A DNA stretch of 64,000 nt from Bolinopsis microptera (lineage: Eukaryota; Ctenophora; Tentaculata; Lobata; Bolinopsidae): positions 12,636,635 to 12,700,634 of the forward strand of contig NC_087079.1 of assembly GCF_026151205.1 (NCBI RefSeq). Direction: 5' to 3'. Of the stretch, positions 2,890-63,095 are shown in pieces (positions within the stretch are counted from its first letter, which is position 1; every line of letters starts with the position of its first letter). Below the pieces are notes generated by a model that was given only the letters and a program-made list of their open reading frames with translations, was not told the DNA's origin and ran no database searches. Made by a program: the position numbers and the translations under genes.

Positions 2890-3972
2890 AGTAGTTGTTC
2901 AATGATTCGCCACAAAAATGTTCAAATTATGTAGGAGGTTAAAGGACCACAATTGCTCGTAGTGCTTCTTTGTGCCCGTTGACTACAATGAACAATTTTG
3001 CAGGAGTCTTCTCCAGACGGGCTTTTATCGGAAGTGCGTGTTATTTACTTGGTTTTGCACAAGCCAGGCCAACATTTTTGTTTTTTGTGTTAGCCGTGCT
3101 ACCAGGTTGCAGAGTATTATAAAAACTAAACAATTTATGCACTATACAAATTTGCTAATACAATATCATGCAGAGTACGATCTAGCTGCAAACGTCAGAC
3201 ACCACAGTTCAGACGAAGTTACGATTTACGTGAAACACCGAAATATAGAGGTTTAGGTGTCATTTTTGTAAATCACTTTTAGGATGGATAATTCAGTAAT
3301 TGTTGAAGAAAATTACAGTCACTGCCACCTTTAGCGTTATGTCATGCGGTATGATTTAAGGCCTAAGCATAACGTTACGTGGCGCATAAGAAACCAGCGC
3401 TATGTTGAAGGAGAGTAGCTGCACGGCGCGCTTTTTAACATATATTACGTAATAGCGCCGTACGGAAACGGCAATATTTAAGTAATTATGTATTTGTTTA
3501 CATAAATTCCACGTTTTTATCAAATAATCTTGCATGGTCCAAAACTGTTTTAGTTGTCATTATGCCTCTCATATCGAACATGCTTTGGGCATCTAGAGAG
3601 ATCGGTTTAGCCTTGATTTGATGAGTTACTGGATGTGTTCTCAAAGTCTGGTTTATTTGTGGATTGGAGTCCTTGAATTGATTCCAAAGCACCAAGAAGA
3701 TTTATAAATATAGTTATGGCTTGGGACTTTGGTGGTATTAGACGGTCATCCTCAGTTCAGACATGTTAAGTAATGAGTAGAGAGATATGGGTTACCATAT
3801 ATTTCCTATTTAAAAAGTTCAGTTATCAGTACGAGTTCGTAATGATTATGAACAGTAGGAGTTTATGGACTGTTTAAAATAATGGGTTTGGTTGATTCAT
3901 TGGAATAGAATTCAGCTCCTAGTTTTTGACAACATAAGGTCTAACAACGGTTATTATGAACTACCGATTTAG
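2890..3972 (-). pseudogene. 3' fragment of the PHD-EN-RT retrotransposon, macrosatellite unit 1
   Basis: It matches 35210-36275 almost base for base apart from indels: 3' UTR at 2890-3500, then the C-terminal end of the ORF at about 3500-3972. The match stops abruptly after CTACCGATTTAGA near 3970, as expected for a 5'-truncated insertion. It faces the plus-strand RT fragment tail to tail. Confidence 0.88.
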
Positions 3973-6830: not shown

Positions 6831-8239
6831 ACAGACAACTATGGTGCAGTTACAACTTTGATGCAAATGATTTCATTGAAATAGGGTAATTAACTAAACT
6901 TAATCATATGAGTAAACCACGGTGTATTGCAAAGAACATGACAAGGGTATCAGGGACCTATATATTAATCTAAGGACGAACAAAACGAATCTTCATACAA
7001 AAATTTTAAAATCCTGCGGGCACAGATCCTGTTGTTTTCCTACTCTGCCTCTCCCCAAACCCCTCTCCTTCCCTTTCTTTCAGGGTTATTCTTCAATTTT
7101 TTTAATTAAGATAGCAGATTATTTTCTTTCGAATTAGTAATGGAATTATACATTATTTGGTATCGTATGTATGTTGTGTTAGTGTTAGTAACTAGTATGT
7201 GCTTGAATATTTTGAAGAATTTGGAGGATCACGACGTCTCGTCCCTTGGGTTGAGTTGTAAGTGAGTATATGTTCAAATAGCCTTACTTCGTATGGTGAA
7301 ACATCGAAAGTTTGCCTTGACCTTTAGGTGGAGTGGTTTGCCCTCGGGGATCAAAAAATATGACTTATCCATGAACACTTACTTTGACACGTGAACCTTA
7401 TAAAAAACGTCTGTAATGATCCATTAAATTTTCTTAGTATATTTAGCTAGTTTATAGTAGATACACATCGATTCTCAAGAATAGAAAGCACAATTGGGCT
7501 CTTTGTCTGCGACCGTGTTTCCTCGGTGGGCCGGACAGGTTTTTGTTGTGTAGTAGTGCTGGGGAAAAATACCACGCTTTAAATATCAATGAATGTAATA
7601 TTGTTAATTGACATTAGCATGCAAACAGATTTATGTGGTAAATACCAAATTTATGTCAAACATTATTTTCGTAGAAGGCATGATTCTACCAACATCACTA
7701 AGCTTATGGCATGGATAATTAGCACACAAGGATAAACTGACCTTTTAATCAAGACCACGAGCTTTACCACGTAATCATAGCTCCCGAATAAAATAAATTG
7801 CTCTACATAGAAACATCTGGCCTGATCTTAATCACATTGTGGTCCCCTGGGGTTCGGGTAAAGGCCCTTTACAGGCAACTGGGTCCTTTTACAAGCCACA
7901 GAAAATCTAGTCATGACCTGTACTGTCTCATAACTGTAACCAACTATTTAAAAAATAGATATCTTTTGCTAGAAATTTTACATTTTAAAGCCATAGAGCA
8001 TCTTCTCAATTTTAAAATTTAAAAATAACATTTTTCCCTAACTTGATGTGGTGGGCATTTCATACTTAATAAAATTAAACTTTGAAAGTTCATTAGATTA
8101 TTAGTCACAACAAAAATTATAGTTTAAGACATACATTTTGCTATTGTAGTTTCCATTTTAGAATTTATGATATGTAATGTTTGAACTAATTGGTAATATA
8201 TTTATTTTTGTGTTTATTAACTTTTCCTGTTTTATTAAT

Positions 8240-23900: not shown

Positions 23901-26900
23901 AAAAAAGTCCCCCGTTCAAGGAGGCAAAAACCCCAAAAAGCGTTGACACATTGCAACTGCTGCACTTTCGCTTTTGGGTGCTAATATCAGACGAAGCCTT
24001 ATATCACGGTCAACTCTTTGCTTCGTGAAATATGGAATTTACTGTTCGGCAAGAAAAGTTATTTATTTGAATACATAGTTTGTTGGGCATCATTTCTATT
24101 ATTGAGAAAATACAGTTTTTTACTCTCGATCTTATTTCACCTCGCCATAATAAAATCAATAACGTCACTGTAAGGTAAACGATTACAGTAGCAGTAGTAT
24201 TTACAACTCTGCACTTCCCCATCAACATATCTCGAGCATGTTTTAAAGTTATGCGAAATCTCCACTTGAGGTTTACAATTATCCTTGCGCAAAACAAAGT
24301 ATTTTAGTAAAACAAAGTATTTTATTTATCAGCAGTGCAATCAATTCATATGATATAATTATAAGAATATAATAGTATAGTATGTCATACCAATTTAACT
24401 GCTACGTTTGAGTAGTCGTGCCATGGCTAAATCTAACTAGGACCAGTGGTGTCGATTAACATTTAATAGGTGAGTCTAAGTGATACAAATGGAAAAGTTA
24501 TGAAAAGACGGATCAAAACACAGATCCAGGACAAGAAGACCCCACTGCAGGACCATTCATGCTATTGGCTGTGTGCATGGCCCGAAAGGTTCCAGTTGTC
24601 CAGGAAACTGTACGTAGCTGTCAACTAGTTTTGAATTCAGACTAGGCTTGATAGTTCTGGGGTTTCTAGAGGTAAGATTTGATGGTGCCAATCGAGCACA
24701 AGACTATGGACAATCTTACTTATTTTAAGTGTTCATATTTTAGATATTCAGCTCCCTCACTCCCTGTCTCGGACCGAATCTCTGAATCACAACCGAATAA
24801 ATCAGGTGAAATATTTGCCTTGGAACTAAAGGGATACCAAGTCCTTTTCAGTTTAGTAACTTACGAGGAGCCAACTTTATTCCTAAAATTTTATTAATTC
24901 CTAAAATTTGCACCAAGTGGGTCTCACGTTTTGAACTTAATAATATGTTTAATTGGGTATGTAGTAAAAATAAACGACAAGGTTATTCAAAATTAGATAA
25001 AGTAAAATAACAAGTTACAAAATATCAAGTTACCAAATTTTGTAATAATAGCTTTTCGCTTAAAAAAGAATAGCTCATCTAAGTTTCAGATAACTGACTA
25101 ACCATTTTAAAAAGTAAAAACAAAGATGCAAAAACATTTCGTATCAAAAGAATTGAATATTAAATTATCTCAATTAAGTGGATTGTCCGAAGTTTAAATC
25201 CTCAGTCAATATAAAGGAGATTGTCCTTGTTGGGAGAATTCTCCTTCATCTCCGGTATGTTACTTCTCAGTCACTGCAGGATTGGAATATCTTGAAATGA
25301 GTTATCACACTCTCAGTAATTGTTACTCCGACAAAGTTACCTGTCAGAGATATTGATTAGTTAATTAATAAGTTAAATTATCTTCAATCTTGCAATGAAA
25401 CACTTAATTTCATCATCAGCCTTATATTGAAAAATAACATAATCTCGAATAATCTACGTAATGTGCCAAAATTTAACTTATAAAGCTAACATACCAAGGA
25501 TGTCCCAGTAAGATCTAATTTTCTCCAGAATGTCCACAGTCAGTGTCCGGTTGAAAATCTCCTGGGAGTACAGGATGTCCCACTGAGTGATCTCCTTCTT
25601 CTCCTCACACTCACATTCCGTCCCGTTCTTCTCAGCAGCATCATTCCTTCCTTCCCGGGATCCTGGTGTGGGTTCCTCTGTCTCCTCCTCCTCCTCCTCT
25701 GTGGGGCAGGTCCGAGCAGGACATCCTGGTTCCACCTCCGTAATGTTCCCGTTTCTCTGCTCCAGGAGCAGATCCTCCCATCTGAGATACCGGACTCTCC
25801 CGTAACTCTCCTCCACGTCCGAGCAGAGTCCTGCCTCTTTCATCCCCAGTACCTCCTCCCCTGTTAGCTCCTTTGCGAAAAAGTTAAGCTTAAAAAGCTC
25901 CCCTCCGAATATTTCTTCTCCGCCTCTGCTACTGCCGTCATAATGATTGTCATTACAGAAGAAGAGGAATCCATCCAATCCAAAAGTTCTGGACGGCGTG
26001 GCACCCTGCCCAACAAGTTCCCCGTTAAAGTATACCTTTCTAGTGTTGGAAGATGTACTCCAGGAAGTACAGTGGTGGTTCCATGTTCCTTTAGAGGGGT
26101 TTATCTTGCTGCTCAAGCCTAAGTTGGTCCCCAGAAAGTAGTTCCAATTACCATTATCCGAGATGAGTATTTCGTGGTTATTAGAGCTGGTAGCATAAGA
26201 TAACCAACCTGGACTGCTATTAGAGGACAGCGATTTAACCCAGGAACAGACTGTTAGCGCGTTTTGCAGAGGTGACATATCGGGCTGGAACATGATGAAA
26301 TCCTCCAATGTATCCCCGAACTTGAGAGCGTACTGTCGTCTGTCTACCAGTCTGGAACCGTCTGTAGTGTTGAACCCAATAGTGGGGTCGGTCAGAAGGA
26401 ATAGTAGAACAACTCCTAAGTTTACCTTCAGGTGGACTCTCATCATATTTATCAATAACTATTTGGAAAGTATGAAATGAAATTAAACGCTTTATTTATA
26501 CCCTACATAAAGGGTGTTGTTAGCTCAAGTAAAATTTGGAGAAATAACGTCGCAAAGAATAATGAAAAAGTTACAAAGTGGGCACTTTATAAAGGTTACC
26601 TTAGGTGGGGCTGGGGTAAGAATGTTGGTAGGATAAGAATGTTGTGAAACTGATAACCTAACTTTATGATTATGGGTTTGTGAACACTTTAACGTGTTAT
26701 GCCAAACTGTTATATTCTTAATAAATGCGTCCGAAAATGAATGAAGCATCAATTCAAGACAGAACAAGTCTGCTGATTAAAAACCAACAACACTATCTAA
26801 ACCGAGTAGAAGCGTAGTGAGAAATAACCGTAACAGCGTGATGCCGTTGAAAGACCAGTCACTGCCTACTTGTAACTGACTACCAGATAGCGACTGTTCA

Positions 26901-29900
26901 ATTGTGAGCTCTCCTTTGAATTGTCAGATTTATATACCCGCAAAAATTACGCCATCAGACGGTAGTTATCAGGTTTTGAGTTTTGGGTTTTGGGAGTAAT
27001 TTGAAAAATTACGGTCCCGATAAATTGCTATATATGTTAGTGATAGTTGATACCGATAGCTGTGATCATGGTCATCAGTATATTCTTATATTATGTGTTC
27101 TTCAGAGCCAAGTATTATTATTATCGGACTAACTCATAATATTCATAACTAATCAAATTTATTCTGCTCGCGAATAACAAAACGACGAACCGACAAAGTG
27201 TTAGCCGATTTTCCTTGGTGGGAACTTTATAATTACGGTGCAAACCTCCTAATAACAAGCAGAATTCAAAAGTCGAAACAGCAGCCCATTTTGGTTTTGA
27301 CTCACCAAGTAACAACAAAAATTAATTCGACAGTTTGATGAACAGAGTTGTCATCTGAACTCTACCTTAGATCTAGCCCATTTCTAAGTCATTAAAATTC
27401 CATCCATTGACCACATAACAAATTAATTCTCACTTATTGGTCGACCGTCGACGTGATCCGATCACCGACCACCGTGGAATCCCGGATCTCAGAGGGCCTT
27501 ATTGTCTGCCACGGGGAAGGGGGGTTGGGTCTTGATTACAGTTAATTACGGTTAATTACGGAGGGGGAGGGGTAAAAATTGCCAACAAATTGATAACGTA
27601 GGTAATATGTGAACTCAATTCCTGAGCAGCAAAAATATTTCGAATCAAGAAGAATTGAATATTAAGGTATCTCAACTAAGTGGATTGTCAAAAGTTGAAA
27701 TCCTCAGTCAATACTTAAAGCAGATTGTCCTTGATGGGAGAATTCTCCTTCATCTCCGGTAAGTTAGTTCTCAGTCACTGCAGGATTGGAATATCTTGAA
27801 ATGAGTTATCACACTCTCAGTAATTGTTACTCCTACAAAGTTACCTGTCAGAGATATTGATTAGTTAATTAATAAGTTAAATTATCTTCAATCTTGCAAT
27901 GAAACAATTAATTTTATCATCAGCTTTATATTGAAAAATAACATAATCTCGAATAATCTACATAATGTAGCAAAATGTAACTTATAAAGCTCACATACCA
28001 AGGATGTCCCAGTAAGATCTAATTTTTTCCAGAAGGTCCACAGTCAGTGTCCGGTTGAAAATCTCCTCAGAGTACAGGATGTCCCACTGAGTGATCTCCT
28101 CACACTCACATTCCGTCTCCTCCTTCTCAGCAGCATCACTCCTTCCTTCCCGGGATCCTGGTGTGGGTTCCTCTGTCTCCTCCTCCTCCTCCTCTGTGGG
28201 GCAGGTCCGAGCAGGACATCCTGGTTCCACATCCGTAATGTTCCCGTTTCTCTGCTCCAGGAGCAGATCCTCCCATCGGAGATACCGGACTCTCCCGTAA
28301 CTCTCCTCCACGTCCGAGCAGAGTCCTGCCTCTTTCATCCCCAGTATCTCCTCCCCTGTTAGCTCCTTTGCGAAAAAGTTAAGCTTAAAAAGCTCCCCTC
28401 CAAATATTTCACTTGCTTGTCTGCCACTGCCATCATAATGATTTTCATTACCGAAGAAAAGGAATCCATCCAATCCAAAAGTTCTGGACGGTGTGGCACC
28501 CTGCCCAACAAGTTCCCCGTTAAAGTATACCTTTCTAGTGTTGGACGATGTACTCCAGGAAGTACAGTGGTGGTTCCATGTTCCTTTAGAGGGGTTTATC
28601 TTGCTGGTCAAGTCTAAGCTGGAGTCCAGAAAGTAGTTCCTATTACCATTATCCGAGATGAGTATTTCGTGGTTATTAGAGCTGGTAGCATAAGATAACA
28701 AGGTAGGACGGCTATTAGAGGACAGCGATTTAACCCAGGAACAGACTGTTAGGGCGTTTTGTAGAGGTGACATATCGGGCTGGAACATGATGAAATCCTC
28801 CAATGTATCCCCGAACTTGAGAGCGAACTGTCGTCTGTCTACCAGTCTGGAACCGTCTGTAGTGTTGAACCCAATAGTGGGGCCAGTCAGAAGGAATAGT
28901 AGAACAACTCCTAAGTTTACCTTCAGGTGGACTCTCATCATATTTATCAATAACTATCTGGAAAGTATGAAATGAAATTAAATACTTTATTTACACCCTA
29001 CATAAACAATACAAATCATCAAAGATAGAGATCTCTAATATCAGATCGGCTATCCATTACATGTAATACCAAAGTAACATCATCAAAAGACAAGTTCAAA
29101 TTTAGGGACAACTGGGACTTCTATGAAACAAATTATAAAATTTCTGAATCGTTCAAAAATAGAACTGTAAAAGTAATTCTGAAAATTCCAAGTACAACAA
29201 TTGGTGTTATTAGCTTAAGTAAAATTTAGAGAAATAACGTCGCAAAGAATAATGAAAAGGTTGCAAAGTGGGCACTTTATAAAGGTTACCTTAGGTGGGG
29301 CTGGGGTAAGAATGTTGGTAGGATAAGAATGTTGTGACAACCTAGATTTATTAGTATGGATTTGTAAACATGTTAACCTAAGATTTCTGATGAGACCAGT
29401 TATCTGACTGTTGTTTTGGTCAGTTACTATGAACATAACGTTAAACCTTCAGAATGCTATTGTTTCGGTAATATTCGACTATCTGAAAGATTTCAACAGT
29501 TCTGTTCAAGGAGTCAAAGCACATAGCGTTGACACATTGCAACTGCTGCACTTTCGCTTTTGGGTACTAATATCAGACGAAGCCTTACATCACGGTCAAC
29601 TCTTTGAAATATGGAATTTACTGTTCAGCATGAAAAGTTATTTATTTGAATACATAGTTTGTTGGGCATCATTTCTATTATTGAGAAAATACAGTTTTTT
29701 ACTCGCGATCTTATTTCATTAAGATTTCACCTCGCCATAATAAAATCAATAACGTTATTTTTACAATATAACGTAAGGTAAACGGTTACAGTAGCAGTAG
29801 TATTTACAACTCTGTACTTCCCCATCACCATAATATCTTGAGCATGTTTTAAAGTTATGTGGAATCTCAATCTGAGGTTAACAGTTATCCTTGCGCAACT

Positions 29901-35204: not shown

Positions 35205-38200
35205 ATTTTAATTCAGATGTTGTTCAATGAGTTAGCCACAAAAATGTTCAAATTATGTAGGAGGGTAAAGGACACAATTGCTAGTAGTGCTTCTTTGTGC
35301 CCGTTGACTACAATGAACATTTTGCGGAGTTTCTCCAGACGGCTTTTATTGGAGTGCGTGTTATTTACTTGGTTATGCACAAGCCAGGCCAACATTTTGT
35401 TTTTGTGTCAGCCGTGCTACCAGGTTGCAGAGTATCATAAACACTAAACAATTGTACACTATACAAATTTGCTAATACAATATCATGCAGAGTCCGATCT
35501 AGCTGCGAACGTCAGACACCACAGTTCAGCCGCCAAGTACCGTTTAAGTGAACACCGAAACACGAGGTTTAGGTGTCATTTTGTAAATCACTTTATGGAT
35601 GGATAATTCAGTAATTGTTGAAGAAAATTACAGTCACTGCCACCTATAGCGTTATGTCATGGGTCTGATTAACGGTCAAGAATAAACGTACGTGCGCGCT
35701 TAAGAAACCCGCGCAAATGTTGAGGTAGGGAGTAGCTGCGGCGCGCTTTTAACATATATTACGCATAGCGCCGTACGGAAACGGCAATATTTAAGTAATA
35801 AAGTATTTGTTTACATAAATTCCACGTTTTTATCAATAATCTAGCATGGTCCAAAACTGTTAAAGTTGTCATTATGCCACTCATTATCGAACCTGCTTTG
35901 GGCATCTAGAAGAGATCGGTTTAGCCTTGATTTGATTGAGTTACAGGATGTGTTCACAAAGTCAGGTTTATTCTGTGGATTGGAGTCCTTGAATTGATTC
36001 CAAAGCCAAGAAGATTTATAAATAAAGTTATGGCTTGGCTTTGGTGGTATTAGACGGTCATCCCTCAGTTCAGACATGTTAAGTAAAGAGTAGAGAGATA
36101 TGGGTACCCTATATTTCACTATTTTAAAAAGTTCAGTTATAGTACGAAGTTTGTAAAGATTATGAACAGTAAGGAGTTTATGACTGTTAAATAATGGTTT
36201 GGTTGATTCCTTGGAATAGAATTCAGCTCCTAGTTTTTGACAACATAAGGGTCTAACAAGTTTATTATGAACTACCGATTTAGAGCGGACACACTTTGCA
36301 CATGGTTTAATACGTGGATTAACAGAGTTATTAACATTAGACTCATATTTACCCAGTATTTTACATTGAATAGGTCTAGAACGAGCACATGTTTTGAATT
36401 TGTTTTGGTATGAGTTTGCATCTCCAAAAATTATTCTAATACATCTCTTCTGTGTTAAGAATACAGGGTTGATAACTTGGTTAGAGACACCACCCCATAC
36501 TGAGATGGCGAACGTAAGGTGTGATTCAAATAGTGTGTGGTACATCTGCTTGTGCAGTTTTATAGGTAGACAGTTTTTTATGCGGTAAATACGTCCACAA
36601 GCACTTCTTAGTTTCTTATTTAGTGATTCGATGTGAGGTTTCCAGTTCAGTTTATCATCAATCAGCACACCTAGAAACTTAGTTGTTTTAACACGTATTA
36701 TTATGGAGCCGTCTATGGAGAGATTTAAATCATCGGGTGTACTGCATGTAGACGATTCATTTACACGTTTGTTTGGGGAGAAATACATATAACAGCTCTT
36801 CTTAGCGTTAATATGTAGTAGATTACATTTCATGTATCTAGAAATAGACGAAAGAATATCGTTAGCTACATTATAAACGTCTTTTTTCGAGTCTGCAGAA
36901 ACGAATAGGTTAGTGTCGTCAGCAAATAAGATAAACTTGCCTTTATTAGATACGTTGCATAGGTCATTTATATACAGGAGGAATAGTAAGGGACCAAGAA
37001 CAGAGCCTTGGGGAACTCCCCACTCAACAGGAAGTTTATCGGAGTTTTCATTTAAGACGTGAACATATTGGCTCCGGTTTGACAGGTAACTTTTTATCAA
37101 ATTCAGTGCGTTGCCCCTAATTCCGTAATTATTTAATTTGAATAAAAGCTTCTCGTGAGATATCGTGTCGAAAGCCTTACTTAAATCAATGAAAATGCCA
37201 AGAACGTGTTTCCTGTCTTTTAAGTGTGATTCGATATGGCTAACAGATAAGTTCAGTGCGTGGCTTGTTGAGTGACCCTTTCTAAATCCAAATTGGTTCT
37301 CATAAATGATTCTTTTAGCAATTAGGAAGCTGTACATACGTTTATAAATAAGTTTCTCTAAAATTTTTCCAAATACTGGTAAGGTTGATATTGGCCTATA
37401 GTTTTCAAATAGTTCCTGATTATCTTTTTTATAGATGGGACTTATCTTTCCTAATTTAAGTTCATCTGGGAATATCCCTAGTGTTGCATGCAATGGTTAA
37501 AGTACTTGGCTAAAAAGGGAGATATTATTCTAGCAGACTTTTTTATAACGTGAATTGGAATGTCACTAGATTTACCATTTGTGAACTCATTAATAATATC
37601 TATAATTTCATACTGTGTACAATCACTTAGATATATACTTGACTCACAGGTTTTAGGTAAGAAGTTTGAGAATGAGGGAATTGCATCCAGGGTTATATAA
37701 TCTTCAGAATAATTTTCATTTAGTTTGGATGCAATCGACTGAAAATATTTATTGAATTCATTAGCAATCATCCTACGATTTATTATTTTTTGATCGTTAA
37801 GGATAAAACATGGCTTTATTTCACGCCTGGATTTTCCACGAATAGTGTTTATGATTTCCCACGTTTTTTTACTATCACCAGAGCAGTCAGTTAATTTACC
37901 TGCATAATGATTCTTCTTGACACGGTCAATAAGTGCCTTGAGATGCTTCCTGTAATCCTTATATTCAAGGTATCTTTTTGCTATATTCATACAAGTGAGG
38001 CAATTACACTCCTCGCGTTTAATATTATTATTATTAGTTAGCAATAAACATTTTTTCTTCTGAGACTTTTTCCACAAATCATAGAGCGAGTCTTTCGTTC
38101 AAATTGAGGTAACAATACCACTAGTAATCCATGGGTTGTTCAAAGCGTTACGTTTAGATAATTTCGGTTTGTCAAGTTTGAATGCCTCGTCTAGGTGCTT

Positions 38201-39343
38201 CTGAAAAGTAGTGCAGAAACTACTGAAGTTTTCAGGAGGATTGGTATGTAGTTCATTATCAATTGATGTGAGAAAGGCGTCTACATTTGAGGTGCTATAA
38301 TCGTAATATTGTGCGTGTTTAAGTTTAGGTTCATCAGCTACAAAATTAAGACAACTATTGATTTGAAAGATGGCATGGTGGTGAGAAACATTGAGTTGCA
38401 ACGTTCCTGTAAACAACGTGCTTTCGATTTCATTAGTGAAAATATTATCAATACAGGATGGTTTACATCCAGGCTTTTCGTGTGTTTGGATAGATATCGT
38501 TGGTGAGTACCCTAATCCGAGCATTATGTTTTCTAATTCTTGTGTGCATCTTCTATTGCCGTTATGGAGGTTAATATTAAAATCACCCATTACATGTACA
38601 TTTAACTTTGGGAGTTTACCCATAATTACTTGTAGCTCAGCGAGAAACTGGTCAATGTCTCCACTAGGGGGTCTATAGATTACTCCTACGTTTATAGTTT
38701 TAGATTCTTGATGAATAGTCACAAAGAGGCTTTCTAAATTACTGGTGACGTTTGATACATCTACATTAACGACTGCATTAAAAGCACTGTGAACATAAAC
38801 TGCAACGCCCGTTCCTTTCGATTTGTTATGCATTGTAGTCTGGTAGAAACTATTGAATCCATTAATAGGGTAAACGGAACTCTCTTCTGGGCTAATATTG
38901 GTTTCGGCAAGGCCTATGATAGGGAAATTGTGTTTGAGGCACTCTAATTCAGATATGAGATGGTCGAAGTTGCTTTTATTGCCGTCGATATTCAGGAAGA
39001 AAGAGCCACCATTTTTATGAAGATCGGCACTAAGTTCGTTATTAAATTTGTTGGTGGAGTAAGGCTTACAATATTCTAGAACTTGTGACATTTTCAGAAT
39101 CAAGGGGTCGTTGTTATTGTTATCCGACTTACTAATCATATCTTTAAACGGGTTGTACTGTTTAAGGATTAGCGCTTTGCACTGACTACAAAAGTAATTT
39201 GAGTTGATCACGGTTGCTTCAGAGTTTTTGAAACATTTTTCATGTATAATGCAATTACATTTAAAACATTCAACAAATTTTTGACCTAAACATAAGCTCT
39301 TAAGGCAGTGACTGCATTTTTCCTTATTTGAGAAAGTTACCAT
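35205..39343 (-). mobile_element. PHD-endonuclease-RT non-LTR retrotransposon (CR1-like), nearly full length
   Basis: The minus-strand element has one long broken ORF (35841-39343) and a ~635-base 3' UTR (35205-35840). The 3' end (AATTCAGATGTTGTTCAATG) is shared with the macrosatellite copies at 2890, 8240, 13605 and 18965, which are 5'-truncated members of the same family. Its 5' end is uncertain. The ORF starts two bases from a candidate host exon at 39346-39445. No poly-A or microsatellite tail is obvious. Confidence 0.92.
35841..39343 (-). pseudogene. Retrotransposon polyprotein: PHD finger, APE-type endonuclease, reverse transcriptase
   Basis: ATG is at 39341-39343. The order is a C4HC3 PHD-like finger (CSHC, CFKC, HEKC, CSQC) in the first ~60 residues; an APE endonuclease with GLAETN, YRPPSG, GDFNIN and SHHHAI; then RT with GFRKGHSTSHAL, SKAFDTI, GVPQGSVLGPLLF and the catalytic FADD; and a C-terminal thumb region. 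Two lesions break about 1160 codons: an in-frame TGA at 38099-38101, and a frame change near 37480-37493 (frames ending HCMQH and beginning MHATLGIF overlap). It is the best-preserved copy in the window and, by its short list of lesions, rather young. It would copy itself by target-primed reverse transcription in the nucleus. Confidence 0.93.
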
Positions 39344-39345
39344 AC

Positions 39346-39445
39346 CTGGTAACTGTACCCGCCTCCTCCTCTGGCAACTGAACTGAAGGGTCTCCCGTCA
39401 ACTCTGCTAGTCGGTCCTCTTCGTTTATCAACTCCTCGGTGGAGC
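39346..39445 (-). CDS. Possible 100-base exon of an unknown minus-strand gene
   Basis: The segment is bounded by a plausible acceptor (TATTTTCCAG) and a donor (CAG|GTATGG). It reads as an acidic peptide, STEELINEEDRLAELTG followed by DPSVQLPEEEAG, with no stop. It ends two bases before the retrotransposon ATG. It is either an orphan host exon next to which the retrotransposon landed, or element leader sequence. No partner exon was found. Confidence 0.35.
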
Positions 39446-46590: not shown

Positions 46591-47431
46591 TTTATATACC
46601 TTTAAAGAACGAAAAATTTAGCTTTCCATAAATTTAGTCAAACTTTTGACTAAAATTGTTTTACACCAAATTTCGGCGACTAATTTTGAAGTAGACCAAA
46701 ATTTTAGTAGAGCATATTATATGAATTAAATTTTATTGAGCTTACATTCTTTATCATATGTTTATGATAAACAGTTAGATATCGCTAACTGTGTACAGGT
46801 CCCTACTGCATGTAATAAGAAATTGTATGCTTATGATATGTAACTAATGTATGTAATGTTGGATCGCCGTTGGAATGTTCCCAGTACGGGAATATTCATC
46901 CTTACCAAAATACGCGCGTATGGTGTAAGTTACAGGACCACAAGGTTGATAATTTGTTCACGTGACCGTTTAGCGCGGTGTGCACGTGGGCCCATGGGAA
47001 ATTTCTGATACATGTGTTCCGTTGTCTGTACTTAGTTCACTATGAAGTAGGACTTTATATGCGAAATTTTTAAAAAATAGCTTAATAATGGAAAAATCAA
47101 ATAAATGTAATGGAAAATGGTCTCGAAAAGTCAAAAAATTCGACTAAAATAGTTTTACTAGACTAAAAATTTGCGAAATTTGTGTCCAAAATTATGGTAA
47201 CCAACCGAAAGAAAAATATTTATGCTGCTTGGCAATATAAGTTAAGCTACTTCACCGATATAATACCTGGCCCGAATCTCTTTAGACTCCTTACTCCATT
47301 GAATTGTTTGGCCATATTATGTTGACATTACAATCCGCGAAAATTTAAGCCGCGGAAATAATTAAACTTTAGATAACCACGAAAATAAGTGCCTATGATT
47401 TATAATAAGCTACATCATTTTGCGTTCGTCA

Positions 47432-48680
47432 CAGCTATGTCCGAATGAAGGTAATATAATAATCCCTCACAGCTATGTCCGAATGAAGGTAATATAATAA
47501 TCCCTCACAGCTATGTCCCAATGAAATAATCCCTCACAGCTATGTCCCAATGAAATAATCCCTCACAGCTATGTCCGAATGAAGGTAATATAATAGTCCC
47601 TTACAGCTATGTCCAAATGAAATAATCCCTCACAGCTATGTCCGAATGAAATAATCCCTCACAGCTATATCCGAATGAAGGTAATATAATAATCCCTCAC
47701 AGCTATGTCCGAATTAAATAATCCCTCACAGCTATGTCCGAATGAAGGTAATATAATAATCCCTCACAGGTATGTCCCAATGAAATAATCCCTCACAGCT
47801 ATGTCCCAATGAAATAATCCCTCACAGCTATGTCCGAATGAAGGTAATATAATAATCCCTCACAGCTATGTCCGAATGAAATAATCCCTCACAGCTATGT
47901 CCGAATGAAGCTATGTCCGAATGAAGGTAATATACTAATCCCTCACAGCTATGTCCGAATGAAGCTATGTCCGAATGAAGGTAATATAATAATCCCTCAC
48001 AGCTATTTCCGAATGAAGCTATGTCCGAATGAAGGTAATATAATAATCCCTCACAGCTATGTCCGAATGAAGCTATGTCCGAATGAAGGTAATATAATAA
48101 TCCCTCACGGCTATGTCCGAATGAAGCTATGTCCGAATGAAGGTAATATAATAATCCCTCACAGCTATGTCCGAATGAAGCTATGTCCGAATGAAGGTAA
48201 TATAATAATCCATCACAGCTATGTCCGAATGAAATAATCCCTCACAGCTCTGTCCGAATGAAGGTAATATACTAATCCCTCACAGCAATGTCCGAATGAA
48301 ATAATCCCTCACAGCTCTGTCCGAATGAAGCTATGTCCGAATGAAGGTAATATACTAATCCCTCACAGCTATATCCGAATGAAATAATCCCTCACAGCTA
48401 TGTCCGAATATACTAATCCCTCACAGCTATGTCCGAATGAAGCTATGTCCGAATGAAGGTAATATAATAATCCCTCACAGCTATGTCCGAATGAAGCTAT
48501 GTCCGAATGAAGGTAATATAATAATCCCTCACAGCTATGTCCGAATGAAGCTATGTCCGAATGAAGGTAATATAATAATCCCTCACAGCTATGTCCGAAT
48601 GAAGCTATGTCCGAATGAAGGTAATATAATAATCCCTCACAGCTATGTCCGAATGAAGCTATGTCCGAATGAAGGTAAAC
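47432..48680. repeat. CACAGCTATGTCCGAATGAA minisatellite next to the INPP4 start
   Basis: About 1.25 kb of mixed units. Short units are CACAGCTATGTCCGAATGAA plus ATAATCCCT. Long units add GGTAATATAATAATCCCT, and from 47900 a second GCTATGTCCGAATGAA. Higher-order units of about 54 bp dominate 47905-48680 and stay open in one frame (repeating word MKLCPNEGNI). Every copy holds ATG-TCC-GAA-TGA overlapping ATGAAG. The last copy grades directly into the INPP4 coding exon. Confidence 0.95.
48661..48672 (+). promoter_or_regulatory. Three-codon upstream ORF overlapping the INPP4 start
   Basis: ATG-TCC-GAA-TGA ends in the same ATGA that provides the presumed INPP4 ATG (48669-48671). The same mini-ORF is present in nearly every minisatellite copy upstream. 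If the leader contains these copies, start choice could depend on reinitiation; this is inference. Confidence 0.5.
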
Positions 48681-51600
48681 AACAAGGAACTAGCCTACCT
48701 CCTGCAAACAACAGATCCCGTCCTCTCTGAGTGGTTCTACCTCAGTGTTTACGACTTTGCAGCGGAGAGGAAACCCTCTGATTGTGATCAATATGTGAGA
48801 AGATGGGTGCTGTTGGTAAATAATGTGGTGTTGACGTCTAAGAATGAACGAGGTTAGAACGGCATTTTTGTTGTAAATATTTTCGGTTGATTTTTGCTGA
48901 CCTAATGATTTTATAGTACCGTGTTGAATTTGAGATATTATAAGAAACTTTTATTTTCTACTTTCTAAGCTGGTCTGATCCATCTTTTTTACTTGAGACA
49001 CAGCTTTTTAGAATAAACTTAAATTACTCAACAGGATCGTTAGAAACCGTATTGCTGCTTGAGAATTTTACTGTGGACATTTGTCAGTCGAAAGCACATG
49101 GGTTCGGTATCAAACTGGACTTTCAAAACTCAGGTACTTTTACCTTTTTTTAGTGATTGAAAGAAACAACATTGTCAATAATGTTTGCGCAATCGAGGCC
49201 ATAGGTCTTTGACATTATCAGAGCGAATATATTCACTGCTCAACTTAGAGATTATCCAAGCAACCGCTTTAAAACACACAAAAATGAACCGAAACTGGTA
49301 TTTTTGACTAAATGTAATATGTTCAAACTAATTTATTAAAATAGAATTTTCAAGAACTTGCTGTGCTCTAAGTGGAAATTTAAAAGAAAAGATCCCATTG
49401 TTAAAGTACTGATATATACGACGTCATGACGTCATTACACACGTCATGACGTCATTACACTTTCTCCTTAACATCGTCTGATCACCCAAACCTATAAACA
49501 ACAGGTCTAATCTTAACATTTCCACCGTGAAAGGTGCCCCTCTTTAAGAGATTCCCCGGATTCGCGGCTGCTTCCCCATTCTTATAGAAACATTGAGCTC
49601 CCCAAGACCAGAACCGTTCTGTTCCATCTCGGAAGGGTCTACCGAGGCATGATACAGGACAGTCACTGTAGGTCCTGTCCCCCTCAATCACATCAAATGT
49701 AAAGTGTATTTTGTCAACTAGCATGATCAGTGATTCCCTGTGAAAATGTATCTCATCAGGGTAGAGGCTAGGATCTATAACCAGTTGAATGTTAAAGGAA
49801 TCATCTAACTTTCCTGTCGCTGCAGTAACTTGCAGTATAAACCCACAATCCCCTTCTCTGCTGCAATCTGTTCTAGAGTCCTGTTTGAATTTAAACTTAA
49901 TGTCGTGATTTCTTGCAAATAGTTCTTCTGGCGTATATTCACGGGTTGATGGTATACGATTGGAGCAGTTATCAGACACCAAATTGGCATTATTTCGTAC
50001 ATTATAGATGTAAATCCACCTAAGAATGACGGAGTTTTCTTTTCTATATATTTTAATTCCACGGGTTTCCATCCTTTGCCCTGCATAATTATAGCGAATT
50101 TCTCAACCGAGTCGTTACTGGCGAAATCGACTGGTGAATCTGTTTCGTGTCCTTTCTCAAATTTCCAGTTATAAAGAACGTCATAGAAAATATAGCTGTT
50201 TTTCACCAGTTGGGAATTTATCAAAAAAGCTGCGAGTTCGTCATAATCGTTAACGTTATTTAAATGCTGGAAATCGTGAAACAAGTTTGGCAAAGCTGCG
50301 TAGGACATGGCATCCTTCATTTCCTTTAGTGCTTTATTATATTGTTGCATTGCTCTCATGATGACCTTGCAATCCTCACTTGATAGAGTATCAACTTCCT
50401 CAAGCTTTTCAAACAGTCTTTGATAGATGTGTTCGTGAGCAGAAGAACAGGGTTTGTAGTTCAATCTCTCTAGTATGTATCTGCAGTTCTGATCAAGTGT
50501 ACATCCGTTCCTTTCCAAGTTGTTAAATAGAGCTTCCACGAGAATGTGCTCCTGTTTCACAGTAATTTCCATTATCACATCAAGATTGGTTGTAGAACAA
50601 GATGAGATATCGTTGAGGTAGTTGGTTGCAAAATCCTGTATGCAAGTTGCCAACGATGTACATTTCTTGATTGTGAGATCAATAAATCTTCTACTTTTCA
50701 ATTTGTCTAGAATGTACATGGCCTCGTCAAACAAGAAAAACAGATCGTCAAAGTTATCTTTATCCTTTTTAACGGACTCTGTCAATTCCCTGAAGTATTC
50801 AAAGCAACGTTCAATTAACCAGTTTACCTCAAAAACGTGAACTATTTTGTTCAGATCCCGGAAATTTAGTTTAGATACATTCTTTAAAACACCAGAATAC
50901 GAGGCTTCTAGGAAACACTGTAGTGCACTCTTGGAGAACTCTTCAACTGTTATTTCTGTTTGAAAAAGCTCTATTGTGAGTCTCTTTATAACGGGACTAT
51001 TTAAGGACATAATTGCTGAGTTGGCAAGAAGTACCTCATCGTGCAGAACAAACTTCAGGTTGCCATGGGAGGGGGAACCGAGATATTCCAACCCAAAGTT
51101 TATGGGTACTTGAAGATTCGGAATTTTCGAAGCCATCACGTCCTCTCGATATCTTCTTCAAAGTGGTTTAATAACAGATAACGCTATTTGCTGGGAGGCG
51201 ATTGTTAGCGTTCACAGAACCGAATACTGATAATTATTATATATGACACCGGCTGTTAACAAATTGGTTTTATTTAACAAAATCCAGACGTAAAACTCAA
51301 AGTTGAAACGAATAACAGAACTCACAACATTCCGAATATATATCGCTAGACTCTTAACACGCTACTTACATCAATGTCATGTGCCCTCATGAAGTTATTT
51401 TACACTTACCGTTAATGAGAGGATTGTATTTCAACTTAATGTTGTGCAATTGTGAAAAGAACTTTTTTCTTAAAATATATAACCTACCTGGGAATATGAT
51501 TAATTTCCATTTTCCATCCGATTTACTGATTATGTGATTGTGAAACAAGGTCTATCGCGATGAGTACACGTCTTGCACTCGTTACACCTTTTAGGTTTAA

Positions 51601-54600
51601 AGTCTGACTAGCCTCAAATTTAAATGTTCACCATTTATTTTCCTAGAAACAAAAATGGATACTTCCCTCTTGCACTTTAAATTAAGCGATCCCAAGTCAT
51701 GCCAATAGCCTCATCCAACTTCATACTCGGATAAGACTACTCCTGAGCCCTTTCAAAGTGATTGGTAATAAGTGCAATAATTAATAAAGATAATAATACA
51801 AGTAACAAGTTATTTGTCTAAGTTATTAAATTAAGTAATCTAATTAATTTAAGTACTTAATTAAATTGCTAAATTAAGTAATCTAATTAATCTAAGTACT
51901 TAATTATAATTTAATAAATAATGACTAATTGTACTCAGAGTATCACCTATACTGTTCGTCTAAAGAGGTGGCAGAGAGATGGAAACTAGCGATTACGGAC
52001 TGTGGTTACATGTCGTTACACAGAAAATGGAAAGATCTGCAGGTTAATAAAATCATTAGATTTAATTAATTTATGCAGTTATTGAACAAATACCATTTGA
52101 ATCATTACATTTATTATTACATATTAATATCGATTGGGAACATTTTTATCGACATAGATTTTTAACAGTAAAGTGAGATAAGTAAATCATATCAAATCGA
52201 GTATCTTTTTTTTTCTTTTATAATTTAAGTTAGTTAAACAAAAAATAAGTTTTTTTGGTGTGTAGAGAAGCTTACATAATTATAAATAAGACTCTTATTC
52301 TCCCCTCAGGTAGAATACAACACTTTACTTGCTCAACAAAACAGGATATCAAAATGTTTCGGAACTGAAGAGTACCTCCTCCCTACTGATAACACACGAG
52401 AGGTTAAATTATTTGTTAGATTTATTTATTTATTTATCAAATTATTGTTATTAAATACTTTTCAAATTTTGCAGAGTACAGCAATAAATGATCATAAAAT
52501 AGAGCCGTTCGAAAATATTGCCCCAGCTGTAGAATATGATGGGCACCCAAACACGGTAACACATAGTGAACTATGTCCGCAATTACTTGGACCCCTTGGC
52601 CCTTCATCGAATATAATCTGAATCCAAAACTTTGTGAACAATTATTTCAATTTAATATATCACACAAATCAATGGCAAAGAATTATTTTTTTATCTACGG
52701 TAAAAAAAATTTAAACTATCAGATTTTCCAAGTATTTATATCGAGAATATTCCTCCGGGAACTCCTATAAAGGATATAAATTATAACTTCAAGGAAGGAG
52801 GGATCTGATAATAAACTCACTATCCATTCCCCACCAGGTAGTAGTATCCTGTGAACTCCCAGTGAACTCACCCACCCAGAACACCTTCGCTTCAGTCTAC
52901 ATCAAACAACACGAGAAGTGGATCCTGTGGTACCAGACAGAGAGCGCTGACCACACCTACAATCCTCACTACACCAAAACATTCCTCTTTGAAGTGGACG
53001 ATAAGAATGTCAGGGATGAGTCTTGTTTGAAGTTCTGTATTAATAATATGACGACAGGAACGGTGATGGGGTATGTTGTGACTGATATCCTGACTATTCA
53101 GTCGGCGAAGGATTCTAAACTTGTGTCTCCTCTGCGTGATGATGCGGGTAAGACTTTTTCCTGAACTCTTTATCCGTGTCGAAATCGTTGGGGAAATAAT
53201 GTGGCATTTTTTATATGACATATTAAAGGTCATATCAACCGTTTGCGTTGATATGACCTATAATATGTCATCATTTCATGAAAAACGGTACATATCTTTG
53301 ATTTACTGTGCGTTCATGCGGAAACTTAACTTACGAATTGGTCCTGAAATAATACCGGATCAGCACTAACGCATTTAAATTGATTTATAAAAATGCAGAC
53401 TATCCAGCTAAACGTAGAAAATCTAAGAAAAAGTCGAAAGGTAAAGTTAAAAACAGATCCCTGATAATTTATATCGTTAATTATATAGTTATATAATCCT
53501 TCTAAATCAATTGTCAGATTTCTTTCGCACATTGATTGTGTGGTTCCTTTTTGTTTTTTGATCTTTCTGGAACAAGGTATGCAGTTCTGAACTACCTTCC
53601 TTGAAATCGTAGTTTTTCCGGATTCCTTTTCCCTAATCATAATATTATGTGAAAAACTAAGAATGGTCCCACCGGGCAGTGTTTTTAAACGTTGCAGTAA
53701 GTCATGAAGTAAGTCATCAAATACAAGGTTCAGGAAGTTTTTGGGTTCAACGCCGTGTGTGTACTGATTTCCTCCCTTCCCATTTTTCACTGTCATTTGC
53801 TTACTCTTACAACTGTGTTTCTTGGCTACATCTGAAGAACTCTAGATACGTTGGTTTTGGCAGTCTTCTGAACAAACTACAAAGCTCATCTGATGGTGAT
53901 AAATCCTTTTTAGCTCATTCTAATTTCTCGTTCAGTTTACATCTCTTTTTTTACTCTCTGTTTCAGTCAAATTTACTAAACATTTTACATAATTAGCTAG
54001 AGGTCCCTCTGAGACTGTATCGATTCTGTCCTACAGTTGAACTTATCGTCAGAGATGTAAGAAATACTGAACGGTAGAACTTTTCCATCCATATCTAATT
54101 ATCGACCAATGTAGCATTTCTACAGAGAAATCAGGTCACATACAGTCAGGTCACATACAGTCAGATCACATTAGAAGAAAATACTACAATATAATCAAGG
54201 TACGATGTTGGATACCTGAGTTCTATATCTTTCGATAGCAACTCCATCTATGTATCTGCTTAGCTTCCATCACTGATCCTGGTACTTGAGATTCCAGGTG
54301 TGGCTTTAAACAATGTTTTAAGGGCCCAACACTCAGCTCACTCAGTTGATGGTAGAACAGTGGGTCTTTGTGCGATTACATTACATACACAAATAATCAA
54401 CTAAACAGTGACTAATATTCTATTAACAGTGATTAAGAGCACTTAAAAGAAGCAACACGTAACAAAAGTGATAAATACCACAACCCTGACCCACATTCCA
54501 TTTCAGGTAACGACAACGTGGGGATGATAACGCTAGAACTGTCCACCTCGTACCACAACAAACTACCCACCTCCCACAAGTCCCTCCAACATATGGTCAG

Positions 54601-56569
54601 CAGTGTAGACTCTATCAAACTGGACTCTCATCGGGGCTTCATGTTCCAAACTAACCACGATAAGATCCACGTGTCGGAGCAATGCTGGGATCACCAGGCG
54701 TCCATATCATTTCCTGTGGCTTACATTGAGTTTTTGTTGAGTAAGAAGGAAACTATTATTAGTTCGTATGAGGAGTTTACGAGTTTGGATCCTATATATG
54801 ATCCGATGGTAGCGCAAATGATAAACCATCATGAAACTTCTCTCCTCAGTTTGATCAGGGCTAAAAGATTCTTGTCCAACTACGATGGGGCTCTCTTCAG
54901 AAAGAGTACCCAGAAAAAAGAGAGTGAGTGGCAGTACTGTCCCATTAATCTAGCCGTGTACGCGCTGGGAGTTTGTGATATTGAGGAATGTGAAACTAAT
55001 TATTTTACTGTGACGGTAGGGGCGTTCGCTTCCCACGGACTCGGGTACAAGCAATCATTACAGTCGTCTCTGGTAGCAGCTAGTAAGAATAACATCTATT
55101 CTGTGAGACATGATAGGGTTATGAACAATATTAACACTCTGTGTGAGATATGGAGTGATATTGAGAAGTACAAGCAGATCCTCATTGATTATATTGCTCT
55201 GGAACATTCTGATTTGTACGATTTAGCGGTTAGTTTAACCACTAAAATATCCGATCTGACTGAGTTTTGTAAAACTGGAGATGTTTTGATGGGGGTTCAG
55301 ATGAAGGAGCAAGCCGAGGCGACTGCTAGTTACTGCAGGCTGCGTGACAGACAGTGGTCAGTACCAGAAACTGACTACGTTTGGGATGGTGAAAAATACC
55401 GTGTAAAATCAGTCAATTCCAGGACAAACTCGCTGTCGAATCGAAGCGAAAAGCAAGAATCTGAAACTGACATCACCATGGCGATCACTAATTTTATCTT
55501 AGCTGTGGAGAAGAAGAGTAAAACTATCGGCAGAGACTTGTTAAAAATGTTGGCATCGTTGGAACCCGTGGTGACCCAATCTAGACAGGGGCTCATGTTC
55601 ACCTTACTTTTAGAGGAGAACAAAATCTTCAACTCATTTTTCACTGCAACTCCTGAGATAGAAATGAGAATGAACCAATGTTTTAGCCAGGGGTTAACAG
55701 TGATTTACACAACATTCAACATTGCACTGCTAGACGCTTACACTAGGGAGGATCAAGCATTCTTCAAGATCCTGGATAATATCGGTTATCTAGTGCAATT
55801 CCAGTGCTTACTCAGTACCCACGGCATGGAACTGACAATGTTGGAGGACCACTGGATCACAATTAACAACTTATCCCACTGTAACTTCATCCTTACTTCA
55901 GATAAATTAGGAGAGTTTACACTGAGTGGCCTCTCTTATAAAGTCACAATAACCATGGGAGTGGGGAGTGATATCTGGGACATGTTACCGCCCGGTTTAA
56001 AGAACAGGAAACCTATCCCCATCAGCACGGTGTTGTTCACCAAGGGGGTGAACGAGCAGCAGATGTTGTCCGAACGAGTGGGCACTAACACTATGGAACA
56101 CACAATTAACATAGACGGGTTATGTAAGTTGGAGGTGTACTTCATGATGTATAAAGAGTATGTAACACAAAACAATGTGGCTGGGGATATCCAGAAGTTA
56201 GACTCGCTCATATCCCCAATATGTAAGCACGCTCGTGCCCACATCTACAAAGACATCAAGTTGTTGTCAATGGTTGATGAAGCAGTGCGGCTCATGTCCG
56301 GCTCACGTGTTACGTCCTGTAAATCTGCTAAAGACAGGACGGGCATGTCGGTCACGTACGAGTCGGTCAGCGTGCTGTCCCGGGAACACAGCCTGGTGGC
56401 TAGTGGTTTTAATAATGCGCTGGCCGCTCTGCGTAGTCATGGAGTACGCCCGCTTAATTGTAAGAAGAATACAGGGTCTGGGAAATACGCTTTTAATGCC
56501 TTCCAGATGAAGATCTTACCAAAGGAGTATAGGCCACCTATTGGAACTTACGGTGGTAAGATAACGTAG
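48669..56569 (+). CDS. INPP4: Inositol polyphosphate 4-phosphatase (INPP4 type I/II)
   Basis: Seven exons: 48669-48852, 49035-49133, 51939-52042, 52310-52402, 52475-52555, 52838-53147 and 54507-56569. All are GT-AG with consistent phase, giving 977 residues. Residues ~1-125 look like a PH domain starting MKVNNKELAYLL, with YVRRWVLLVNN and YHLYCSSKEVAERWKLAI. Residues ~188-290 are a C2 domain (SVYIKQHEKWILWYQT). The rest is the phosphatase, with the CX5R active site CKSAKDRTGM (Cys 895, codon 56318-56320) and the family C-terminus YAFNAFQMKILPKEYRPP. It removes the 4-phosphate of PtdIns(3,4)P2 at membranes, damping PI3K/Akt signalling (known for the family). The ATG lies in the last minisatellite copy. 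Intron 2 holds an antisense BTB gene. Confidence 0.95.
49421..49460. promoter_or_regulatory. Duplicated CRE-like TGACGTCA sites
   Basis: A 20-bp word, ACGTCATGACGTCATTACAC, is repeated twice without a gap. Each copy contains the full palindromic CRE/ATF site TGACGTCA (49427-49434 and 49447-49454). It lies in INPP4 intron 2, just downstream of the antisense BTB gene's stop codon. Confidence 0.6.
49482..51136 (-). CDS. BTB/POZ-domain protein, nested antisense, one frameshift
   Basis: The first real ATG is at 51134-51136 (MASKIPNLQVP). Residues ~18-125 form a divergent BTB/POZ fold: NLKFVLHDEVLLANSAIMSL, SPVIKRL, AYSGV-like EASYSGVLKNV and LNKIVHVFEVNWL. A helical BACK-like region follows. The frame that carries the N-terminus to FAIIMQGKGWKPVELKYIEK gives way near 50035-50042 to another frame continuing KENSVILRWIYIYNV and ending IRPVVYRFG at 49482. 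Adding or losing one base in the TTTT runs there would explain it, so it may be a sequencing error or a real lesion. The C-terminal ~190 residues (YPDEIHFHRESL, WSWGAQCFYKNGE) match no domain I can name. BTB domains mediate dimerisation and often link to cullin-3 ubiquitin ligases; the role here is unknown. Intronless. Confidence 0.72.
51137..51938. other. INPP4 intron 2, BTB promoter side
   Basis: Holds the upstream region of the antisense BTB gene and AT-rich sequence. A TTAAATTAAGTAATCTAATT word is repeated at 51826 and 51872. No other exon is supported. Confidence 0.5.
53215..53271. repeat. 57-base perfect-arm hairpin in INPP4 intron 6
   Basis: AGGTCATATCAAC (53227-53239) and GTTGATATGACCT (53247-53259) are perfect complements around a 7-base loop. 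ATGACATATTA and TAATATGTCAT extend the stem with one or two mismatches or bulges, for about 24 paired bases. The size would suit a microRNA precursor or a tiny palindromic element. Confidence 0.6.
53326..53796 (-). other. Reverse-strand open frame of unknown meaning in INPP4 intron 6
   Basis: A 156-codon stretch includes KNFLNLVFDDLLHDLLQRLK and CIPCSRKIKKQKG. I recognise no family. The composition is consistent with a decayed transposon ORF. It carries no introns and no promoter evidence, and I do not regard it as a supported gene. Confidence 0.3.
53800..54506. other. Rest of INPP4 intron 6
   Basis: AT-rich intron with a small repeat, AGGTCACATACAGTCAG, near 54133-54170 (three partial copies), and a CTCAGCTCACTCAG pyrimidine/purine patch. 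The acceptor CCATTTCAG precedes exon 7. Confidence 0.5.
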
Positions 56570-62440: not shown

Positions 62441-63095
62441 AGTAGCACGTTGAGAACTAGAGCTGTTCATATACAGGGGAAATGTTGAGAACTAGAGCTG
62501 TTCGTATACAGGGGAAATGTTGAGAACTAGAGCTGTTCATATACAGGGGAAATGTTGAGAACTAGCGCTGTTCATATACAGGGGAAATGTTGAGAACTAG
62601 AGCTGTTCATATACAGGGGAAATGTTGAGAACTAGAGCTGTTCATATACAGGGGAAATGTTGAGAACTAGAGCTGTTCATATACAGGGGAAATGTTGAGA
62701 ACTAGAGCTGTTCATATACAGGGGAAATGTTGAGAACTAGCGCTGTTCATATACAGGGGAAATCTTGAGAACTAGGGCTGTTCATATTTTTATTTCAAAA
62801 TTCAAATAAACTTTACATCAATGTATTACAGTTATATTCAATAGAAAAGACCACAATATCTCCTGTGAAGCAAAAACATGGAAAAAGAGAGCTAGGAAAA
62901 TATTCATGATACTCAACACTACCAGGGGAAATGTTGAGAACTAGGGCTGTTCATATACAGGGGAAATGTTGAGAACTAGAGCTGTTCATATACCGGGGAA
63001 ATGTTGAGAACTAGAGCTGTTCATATACAGGGGAAATGTTGAGAACTAGAGCTGCTCATATACAGGGGAAATGTTGAGAACTAGAGCTGTTCACT
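62441..63095. repeat. 35-bp minisatellite in two blocks
   Basis: The unit is ATGTTGAGAACTAGAGCTGT plus TCATATACAGGGGAA. The left block (62446-62788) has about 10 copies and the right block (62920-63095) about 5. They are separated by a ~135-base insert starting TTTTTATTTCAAAATTCAAA that looks like a reverse-oriented retrotransposon tail. Confidence 0.95.

Follow-up and report, generated by a model that had tools for sequence, protein, structure and literature searches.

The INPP4 locus and its start codon

The DNA analysed here is a stretch of 64,000 nucleotides from the ctenophore Bolinopsis microptera (assembly GCF_026151205.1, contig NC_087079.1, positions 12,636,635 to 12,700,634 of the forward strand), which we call the window and within which coordinates are given unless another location is named. 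On its + strand, it carries an INPP4-type gene preceded by a minisatellite, and a direct reading bears out what a first-pass annotation of this DNA had proposed, namely that the start codon of the gene (48669) lies within the last copy of a 1.25 kb array that ends at 48678, so that gene and satellite share a codon supplied by the repeat. As argued below, we think it probable that the array grew out of the splice boundary of the gene's own first coding exon. The gene is laid out as follows, all on the + strand:

48669 to 48671: INPP4 start codon, within the last repeat copy
48669 to 48852: exon 1, start of the PH domain (gene model, Pfam)
49035 to 49133: exon 2 (gene model)
51939 to 52042: exon 3, end of the PH domain (gene model, Pfam)
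52310 to 52402: exon 4 (gene model)
52475 to 52555: exon 5 (gene model)
52838 to 53147: exon 6, C2 domain (gene model, Pfam)
54507 to 56569: exon 7, phosphatase region with CKSAKDRT and the stop codon (gene model, PDB match)

The model remains open from the ATG at 48669 across the seven exons and encodes 977 amino acids, with its stop at 56569. Sequence comparison identifies the gene as INPP4-like, in agreement with the earlier annotation: in the PDB, the catalytic exon 7 finds the INPP4-like domain of P-Rex1/2 (E 6e-6 to 8e-5), and it holds a CX5R loop that reads CKSAKDRT, while the N-terminal 187 amino acids match the Pfam PH family with 26.3 bits (cut-off 25.1), and the open reading frame (ORF) piece around exon 6, upstream of the catalytic region, matches C2 with 24.4 bits (cut-off 22). 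With the whole 977-residue protein, the scores dropped to 23.5 bits for PH and 20.4 bits for C2, each just below its cut-off. The 710-residue ORF that holds exon 7 matched no Pfam family, and the PH region found no match in the PDB; a Bac_thur_toxin match of one piece was below the Pfam cut-off and was taken as chance.

The frame that opens at 48669 reads MKVNNKELAYLL. Upstream of this ATG, the frame is closed after only four codons by a TGA at 48654-48656, and downstream the model has no further methionine before residue 119, which makes the ATG at 48669 the sole plausible start of exon 1. The annotation had taken it for the true N-terminus of a PH-type protein, which remains likely but unproven, the PH match beginning only at residue 37. 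Sesquipedalian-type PH proteins start in a similar way (MKLN-x-x-x-L, compared with MKVNNKEL in this INPP4). The annotation had also pointed out that a splice into position 48672 or later would skip the repeat ATG; only weak candidate AGs are found there, ending at 48674, 48686 and 48693 and ranking at the 48th, 12th and 42nd percentiles of AGs outside the array. A genome search for a paralogue or retrocopy of exons 1 and 2, which might have kept an older start, returned two matches, both in the INPP4 gene itself.

Anatomy of the array

The array and the signals in and around it are, all on the + strand:

47401 to 47408: TATAATAA in the left flank, at 8 nt the longest string shared with the unit linker
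47421 to 47434: left-edge acceptor TGCGTTCGTCACAG, ranked by the local splice matrix at the 86.8th percentile among 3697 AGs from outside the array
47429 to 48678: minisatellite, 1250 nt, 43 anchors and 42 links (Tandem Repeats Finder (TRF) and a split at an 11-nt anchor)
48567 to 48572: example of the donor-like AAG/GTAATA, at the 97.5th percentile among 3820 GTs from outside the array; 18 copies of AAGGTAATAT
48629 to 48642: last array acceptor ATAATCCCTCACAG, 99.78th percentile; the exon would start at 48643
48643 to 48668: predicted minimal 5′ untranslated region (UTR), with upstream ATGs at 48645, 48653 and 48661 (direct reading)

The 43 anchors are TATGTCCGAAT-like, and the links that join them are of three lengths, 38 nt (18 links), 29 nt (12) and 16 nt (12). 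The 38-nt unit can be written CACAG/CTATGTCCGAATGAAG/GTAATATAATAATCCCT, that is, a 3′ splice site-like end, a short leader, the ATG with 10 coding nucleotides and a 5′ splice site-like GT. The 29-nt link is the unit without 9 nt, the GT among them, and the 16-nt link is the unit without exactly the 22 nt from GT to AG; a 54-mer (38 + 16) predominates in the part of the array closest to the gene. The idea that the 16-nt link is a splice product returned to the DNA was rejected because slippage is enough to produce it: loss of exactly GT...AG also occurs in 2 of the 54 deletion classes with at least 2 bp of microhomology (3/910 of all classes). The AG and GT signals are retained in the copies, 29 CACAG and 18 AAGGTAATAT being counted in the array region.

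At the right edge, the last copy, CTATGTCCGAATGAAGGTAA, ends ...ATGAAGGTAA and continues as the non-repeat sequence ACAACAAGGAACTAGCC; at the left edge, the unique flank ends ...GCGTTCG and TCACAG opens the first copy. Both edges would fit a single ancestral copy of TCACAGCTATGTCCGAATGAAGGTAA between flank and gene, and the left-edge acceptor is probably the original splice site, predating the duplication. The TATAATAA shared by left flank and linker hints weakly at the flank as a possible source of the latter. A genome-wide pattern search with a 29-mer (up to 3 mismatches) gave at least 30 matches, all within the INPP4 array, and none with the reversed pattern as a control; the counts of this and other genome-wide pattern searches are lower bounds.

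Splice signals in the repeat unit

Splice sites were scored with a matrix built from 11 acceptors and 12 donors of the window, which come from the six INPP4 introns and, for the remainder, from a gene at 57.6-60.6 kb that looks eIF2A-like. Only 8 of the 3697 AGs outside the array equal or exceed the score of the last array acceptor, which resembles the cis acceptors of the INPP4 gene itself, and in a per-array shuffle test the acceptor of the unit reached p values of 0.001-0.004. Both splice scores of the 38-mer were matched together by 7 of 20,000 mononucleotide shuffles. Elsewhere in the window, a p27-like gene also has an acceptor just 5′ of its ATG (99.8th percentile), and at a third start, on the minus strand near 51136, no acceptor was seen by eye.

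Upstream ATGs and the fate of the array

If it were left unspliced, the leader across the array would carry 78 upstream ATGs, 64 of which open ORFs of two to five codons (MSE, MKVI, MK and similar), whereas five open one out-of-frame ORF that crosses the INPP4 start and extends to 48730. Because of these ATGs and of the strength of the unit acceptor (99.8th percentile), the array is more likely to be an outron or an intron than a leader. Consequently, the proposal of the first-pass annotation that the copy number directly alters the leader or the promoter is not supported, and it is more likely that the copy number alters the length of an outron or intron and the number of acceptors in it.

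Three upstream ATGs would persist after splicing at 48642. Those at 48645 and 48661 each open MSE followed by a stop, the TGA of the second overlapping the main ATG, and the one at 48653 opens an out-of-frame ORF that ends at 48730. The three-codon upstream frame ATGTCCGAATGA, within 48643-48672, whose stop overlaps the INPP4 start (ATGA), recurs in most array copies. Ordinary scanning rules would accordingly predict modest INPP4 translation and a strong penalty when more copies are retained.

Spliced leaders in Bolinopsis microptera

In another ctenophore, at least 56% of Iso-Seq reads bear a spliced leader (PMC8527503), and the leader sequence of Hormiphora (PMC8527503) was used here as a query. 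One search of the genome returned 15 leader matches, ten of them dispersed. A candidate cluster of spliced leader (SL) RNA genes (L004-L009, L030-L032) lies on C13 at 12.79-12.90 Mb, flanked by 5S rRNA matches (12.78 and 12.94 Mb), and its leader, ...CAACACTACTATATAACAAATTAATTTGAG, is very like the published one. In the nine C13 loci that were fetched, a GT directly follows the leader in seven and TTTTGG, a putative Sm-like site, is found downstream in all nine (by eye); the copies differ from each other by many indels.

The ten dispersed matches (L022-L029, L033) are of a different nature. An ATG is found within nine offsets of the leader in 8/10, against a background of 13.7% (binomial 4e-6), and in 7/9 if a tandem pair is counted once (3e-5). 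Such copies are probably insertions of trans-spliced RNAs. An ORF that follows on from one of them (L033) weakly matches a PHD finger. Since the genome has both candidate SL RNA genes and leader copies placed mostly just before ATGs, trans-splicing very probably works in this species and places the leader near start codons; for the same reasons, the 5′ end of INPP4 mRNA would most likely be made by trans-splicing onto the array.

Minisatellites elsewhere in the genome

TRF arrays with a period of at least 12, at least 3 copies and at least 90 nt were collected from twenty 10-kb pieces at set coordinates (200,000 bases). There are 34, and they fill 24,983 of the 200,000 bases (12.5%), so that the position of a minisatellite at INPP4 is, by itself, unremarkable. 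A unit with both types of splice site is less ordinary, as only 1/34 sampled arrays passed the threshold for acceptor and donor (L038, 7855-8870).

A second array of the same type was found at a TMF1-like gene (L051, 3861-6860 of G000 C12:5000001-5010000), where copies of a 3′ splice site reach a coding exon. Its unit, ACTAACAAGATATTACCCCTCTCAG/AGTGA, comprises a branch point-like ACTAAC, a pyrimidine tract, the AG and the start of the exon. CCTCTCA occurs in it 46 times, with a spacing of 30 nt in 25 cases and of 44 nt in 19 and a single break in the series, and the last copy extends 10-14 nt into the coding exon 6849-6995, whose acceptor is at the 99.1st percentile. The gene matches Pfam TMF_DNA_bd with 44.7 bits (cut-off 35), and the frame is kept when the exon that ends at 3284 is joined to 6849-6995. 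Judged by homology on both sides of the boundary, this array is a copy series at an ordinary cis intron, with an exon that is firmer than that of INPP4.

Other candidates were discarded. The array L043 (33-nt unit, with GTAAGT and TTTAG) is by eye a coding repeat on the other strand, and L046, L038 (6618) and L040 have, by eye, no coding exon at the edge predicted by their motif. Within the window, the unit of the array at 62449-63093 is acceptor-like (p about 0.013), and no + strand ORF of at least 40 amino acids starts after the array. This 35-nt minisatellite, with its acceptor-like motif on the + strand, lies upstream of a rhodopsin-type G protein-coupled receptor (GPCR) gene (minus strand, 61932-60895).

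Origin of the array and alternative explanations

Taken together, these observations make it reasonably probable, in our view, that the INPP4 array is what has been called a mirage minisatellite, that is, a tandem duplication of the 3′ splice site of the start-codon exon and of its first bases, with trans-splicing of a 5′ leader as the likelier form of its last step in B. microptera. The ancestral gene would have had one TCACAG/CTATGTCCGAATGAAGGTAA copy at the junction of upstream flank and coding sequence, with an acceptor that served either a spliced leader (in trans) or an upstream noncoding exon (in cis). The copies that are read today show that this proposed boundary and 10 coding nucleotides were then duplicated many times, with the linker TATAATAATCCC joining the copies, and that two deletion forms (the 29- and 16-nt links) arose and spread as higher-order units, notably the 54-mer. 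With an acceptor in every 38- and 29-nt link and the donor-like AAG/GTAATA in every 38-nt link, the array would be excluded from the mature mRNA: a short leader before the ATG at 48669 could be restored by splicing to the last acceptor (48642) or by splicing to an early one, followed by cis-splicing within the array. The number of copies would then determine how long the outron or intron is and how many acceptors compete, and the upstream ATGs would penalise wrong choices.

Several observations weigh against this explanation. The use of array acceptors and the presence of a leader on INPP4 mRNA are both predictions from the sequence, as is the INPP4 boundary, homology on both sides being available only at the TMF1-like boundary, and even there the TMF_TATA_bd match across the splice join scores 27.8 bits, slightly below the cut-off of 29.1. 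The splice matrix was built from few sites, and the five acceptors and six donors that the eIF2A-like gene contributes to it belong to exons that were called by eye without homology. Additionally, the donor of the unit is unexceptional for the unit's composition (p 0.069 in the per-array shuffle test), the left-edge acceptor is middling (86.8th percentile), the acceptor at the GPCR start in the window is weak (49th percentile) and one candidate SL RNA folds no better than its shuffles (z 0.32). Finally, among 34 array rows with a period of at least 20 (68 strand-units), an acceptor p of 0.05 or less was seen in 7 rows (4 distinct loci, the INPP4 array being one), against 3.4 expected, so a general tie between minisatellites and splice sites is unsupported.

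The best alternative keeps the same origin and makes the acceptor a cis one, so that an upstream noncoding exon would be joined to the array, the latter being the 3′ part of an intron in the 5′UTR. The unit acceptor is like the cis acceptors of INPP4, and the copy series at the TMF1-like gene and those of amphioxus (PMC3087553) are at cis introns. However, no upstream noncoding exon, which would be recognisable only from transcripts, was identified, and both the position of most leader copies directly before ATGs (8/10) and the high proportion of leader-bearing reads in another ctenophore (at least 56%; PMC8527503) favour trans-splicing. We find the cis version unlikely, if still worth serious thought. 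A much broader proposal seems improbable to us, namely that in this species functional 3′ splice sites repeatedly give rise to minisatellites through some process linked to splicing or transcription, the INPP4 array being a set of about 29 interchangeable acceptors, each with a copy of the start codon, before a trans-spliced gene; its length would be an inherited control on acceptor choice and translation, and its 16-nt links would be splice products that had returned to the DNA.

It is quite improbable that the array acts instead as a promoter or leader, with the TATAATAA of each 38-nt unit as a TATA-like element, transcription starting in the last copies and copy number setting promoter strength. 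TATAATAA is present in most 38-nt units, its spacing from the ATG downstream is plausible, and the upstream minisatellite of primate DDX3Y holds a transcription start (PMC3039753), but the upstream ATGs at 48645, 48653 and 48661 would still be in the last copies, and a unit acceptor stronger than 99.8% of other AGs would be left unexplained. As for a chance overlap of an ordinary minisatellite with the start codon, its splice-like motifs having no role, the abundance of arrays in the sample (34 in 200 kb, 12.5% of sequence) and the lack of overall acceptor enrichment in their units speak for it, but it is highly improbable, as the unit contains 10 coding nucleotides of INPP4 and was thus probably made from the gene's own start, and as the two splice scores rarely occur together (7/20,000 shuffles). 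Motif content and function being separate matters, chance survives in part as a duplicated boundary without effect.

Other features of the window

On the minus strand, 35841-39397 holds ORFs like those of a long interspersed nuclear element (LINE)-type retrotransposon, in which motifs of a reverse transcriptase and an endonuclease can be picked out by eye. Two similar ORFs are found on the same strand at 25481-26458 and 27991-28953, of which the first matches Pfam Laminin_G_3 and Pentaxin; their likeness suggests a tandem gene duplication.

Comparison with known systems

The gene resembles INPP4 phosphatases and the INPP4-like domain of P-Rex1/2 in its C2 and phosphatase-like regions, its CX5R loop and its PDB match, and differs from them by its N-terminal PH domain. 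Such a domain is present in invertebrate INPP4s and is not known from vertebrate INPP4A/B.

With regard to the array, MSY2, upstream of primate DDX3Y, is also a 5′-end minisatellite and affects which 5′UTR is made (PMC3039753). However, MSY2 is located 885 nt upstream of the ATG and has a mapped transcription start (PMC3039753), whereas the INPP4 array reaches into the coding sequence. Ctenophore spliced-leader trans-splicing (PMC8527503) has its likeness here in leaders that end ...AACAAATTAATTTGAG and in candidate SL RNA genes, although a tandem array of candidate acceptors at a start codon, such as the present one, is not mentioned in the excerpted text of that report.

A further parallel is the gain of introns by tandem duplication of AGGT-containing segments (PMC3087553), since AAG/GTAA and the downstream AG make new GT...AG pairs in the array as well; the 22 nt from GT to AG between neighbouring copies is, however, far below the shortest of the six modelled INPP4 introns (72 nt). 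The closest likeness is to the mirage minisatellites of amphioxus, described in Adh3 and in the globin genes BflGb6 and BflGb9 (PMC3087553), in which minisatellite-like copies of an exon boundary, many with AG/GT signals, lie beside the real exon. The Adh3 and globin data suggest that such arrays leave regular splicing undisturbed (PMC3087553). The INPP4 array, known here from its sequence, differs in that the predicted boundary belongs to the exon with the start codon, which is therefore itself repeated, and in that B. microptera has candidate SL RNA genes; moreover, the two haplotypes of BflGb6 have 3 and 6 copies, each of 150-160 nt (PMC3087553), compared with 43 copies and links of 16-38 nt here.

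The presence of two such arrays in 264 kb, one of which repeats a start codon, suggests that new introns and variable 5′ ends may arise more widely through duplicated exon boundaries; two are too few to claim an excess. Should the array at INPP4 prove to be a string of trans-splice acceptors, it would be a natural experiment on leader choice among near-identical sites. In the literature that we found, mirages have been described only in amphioxus, and it is this rare kind of minisatellite that the INPP4 array appears to resemble, here at the first codon of a gene.

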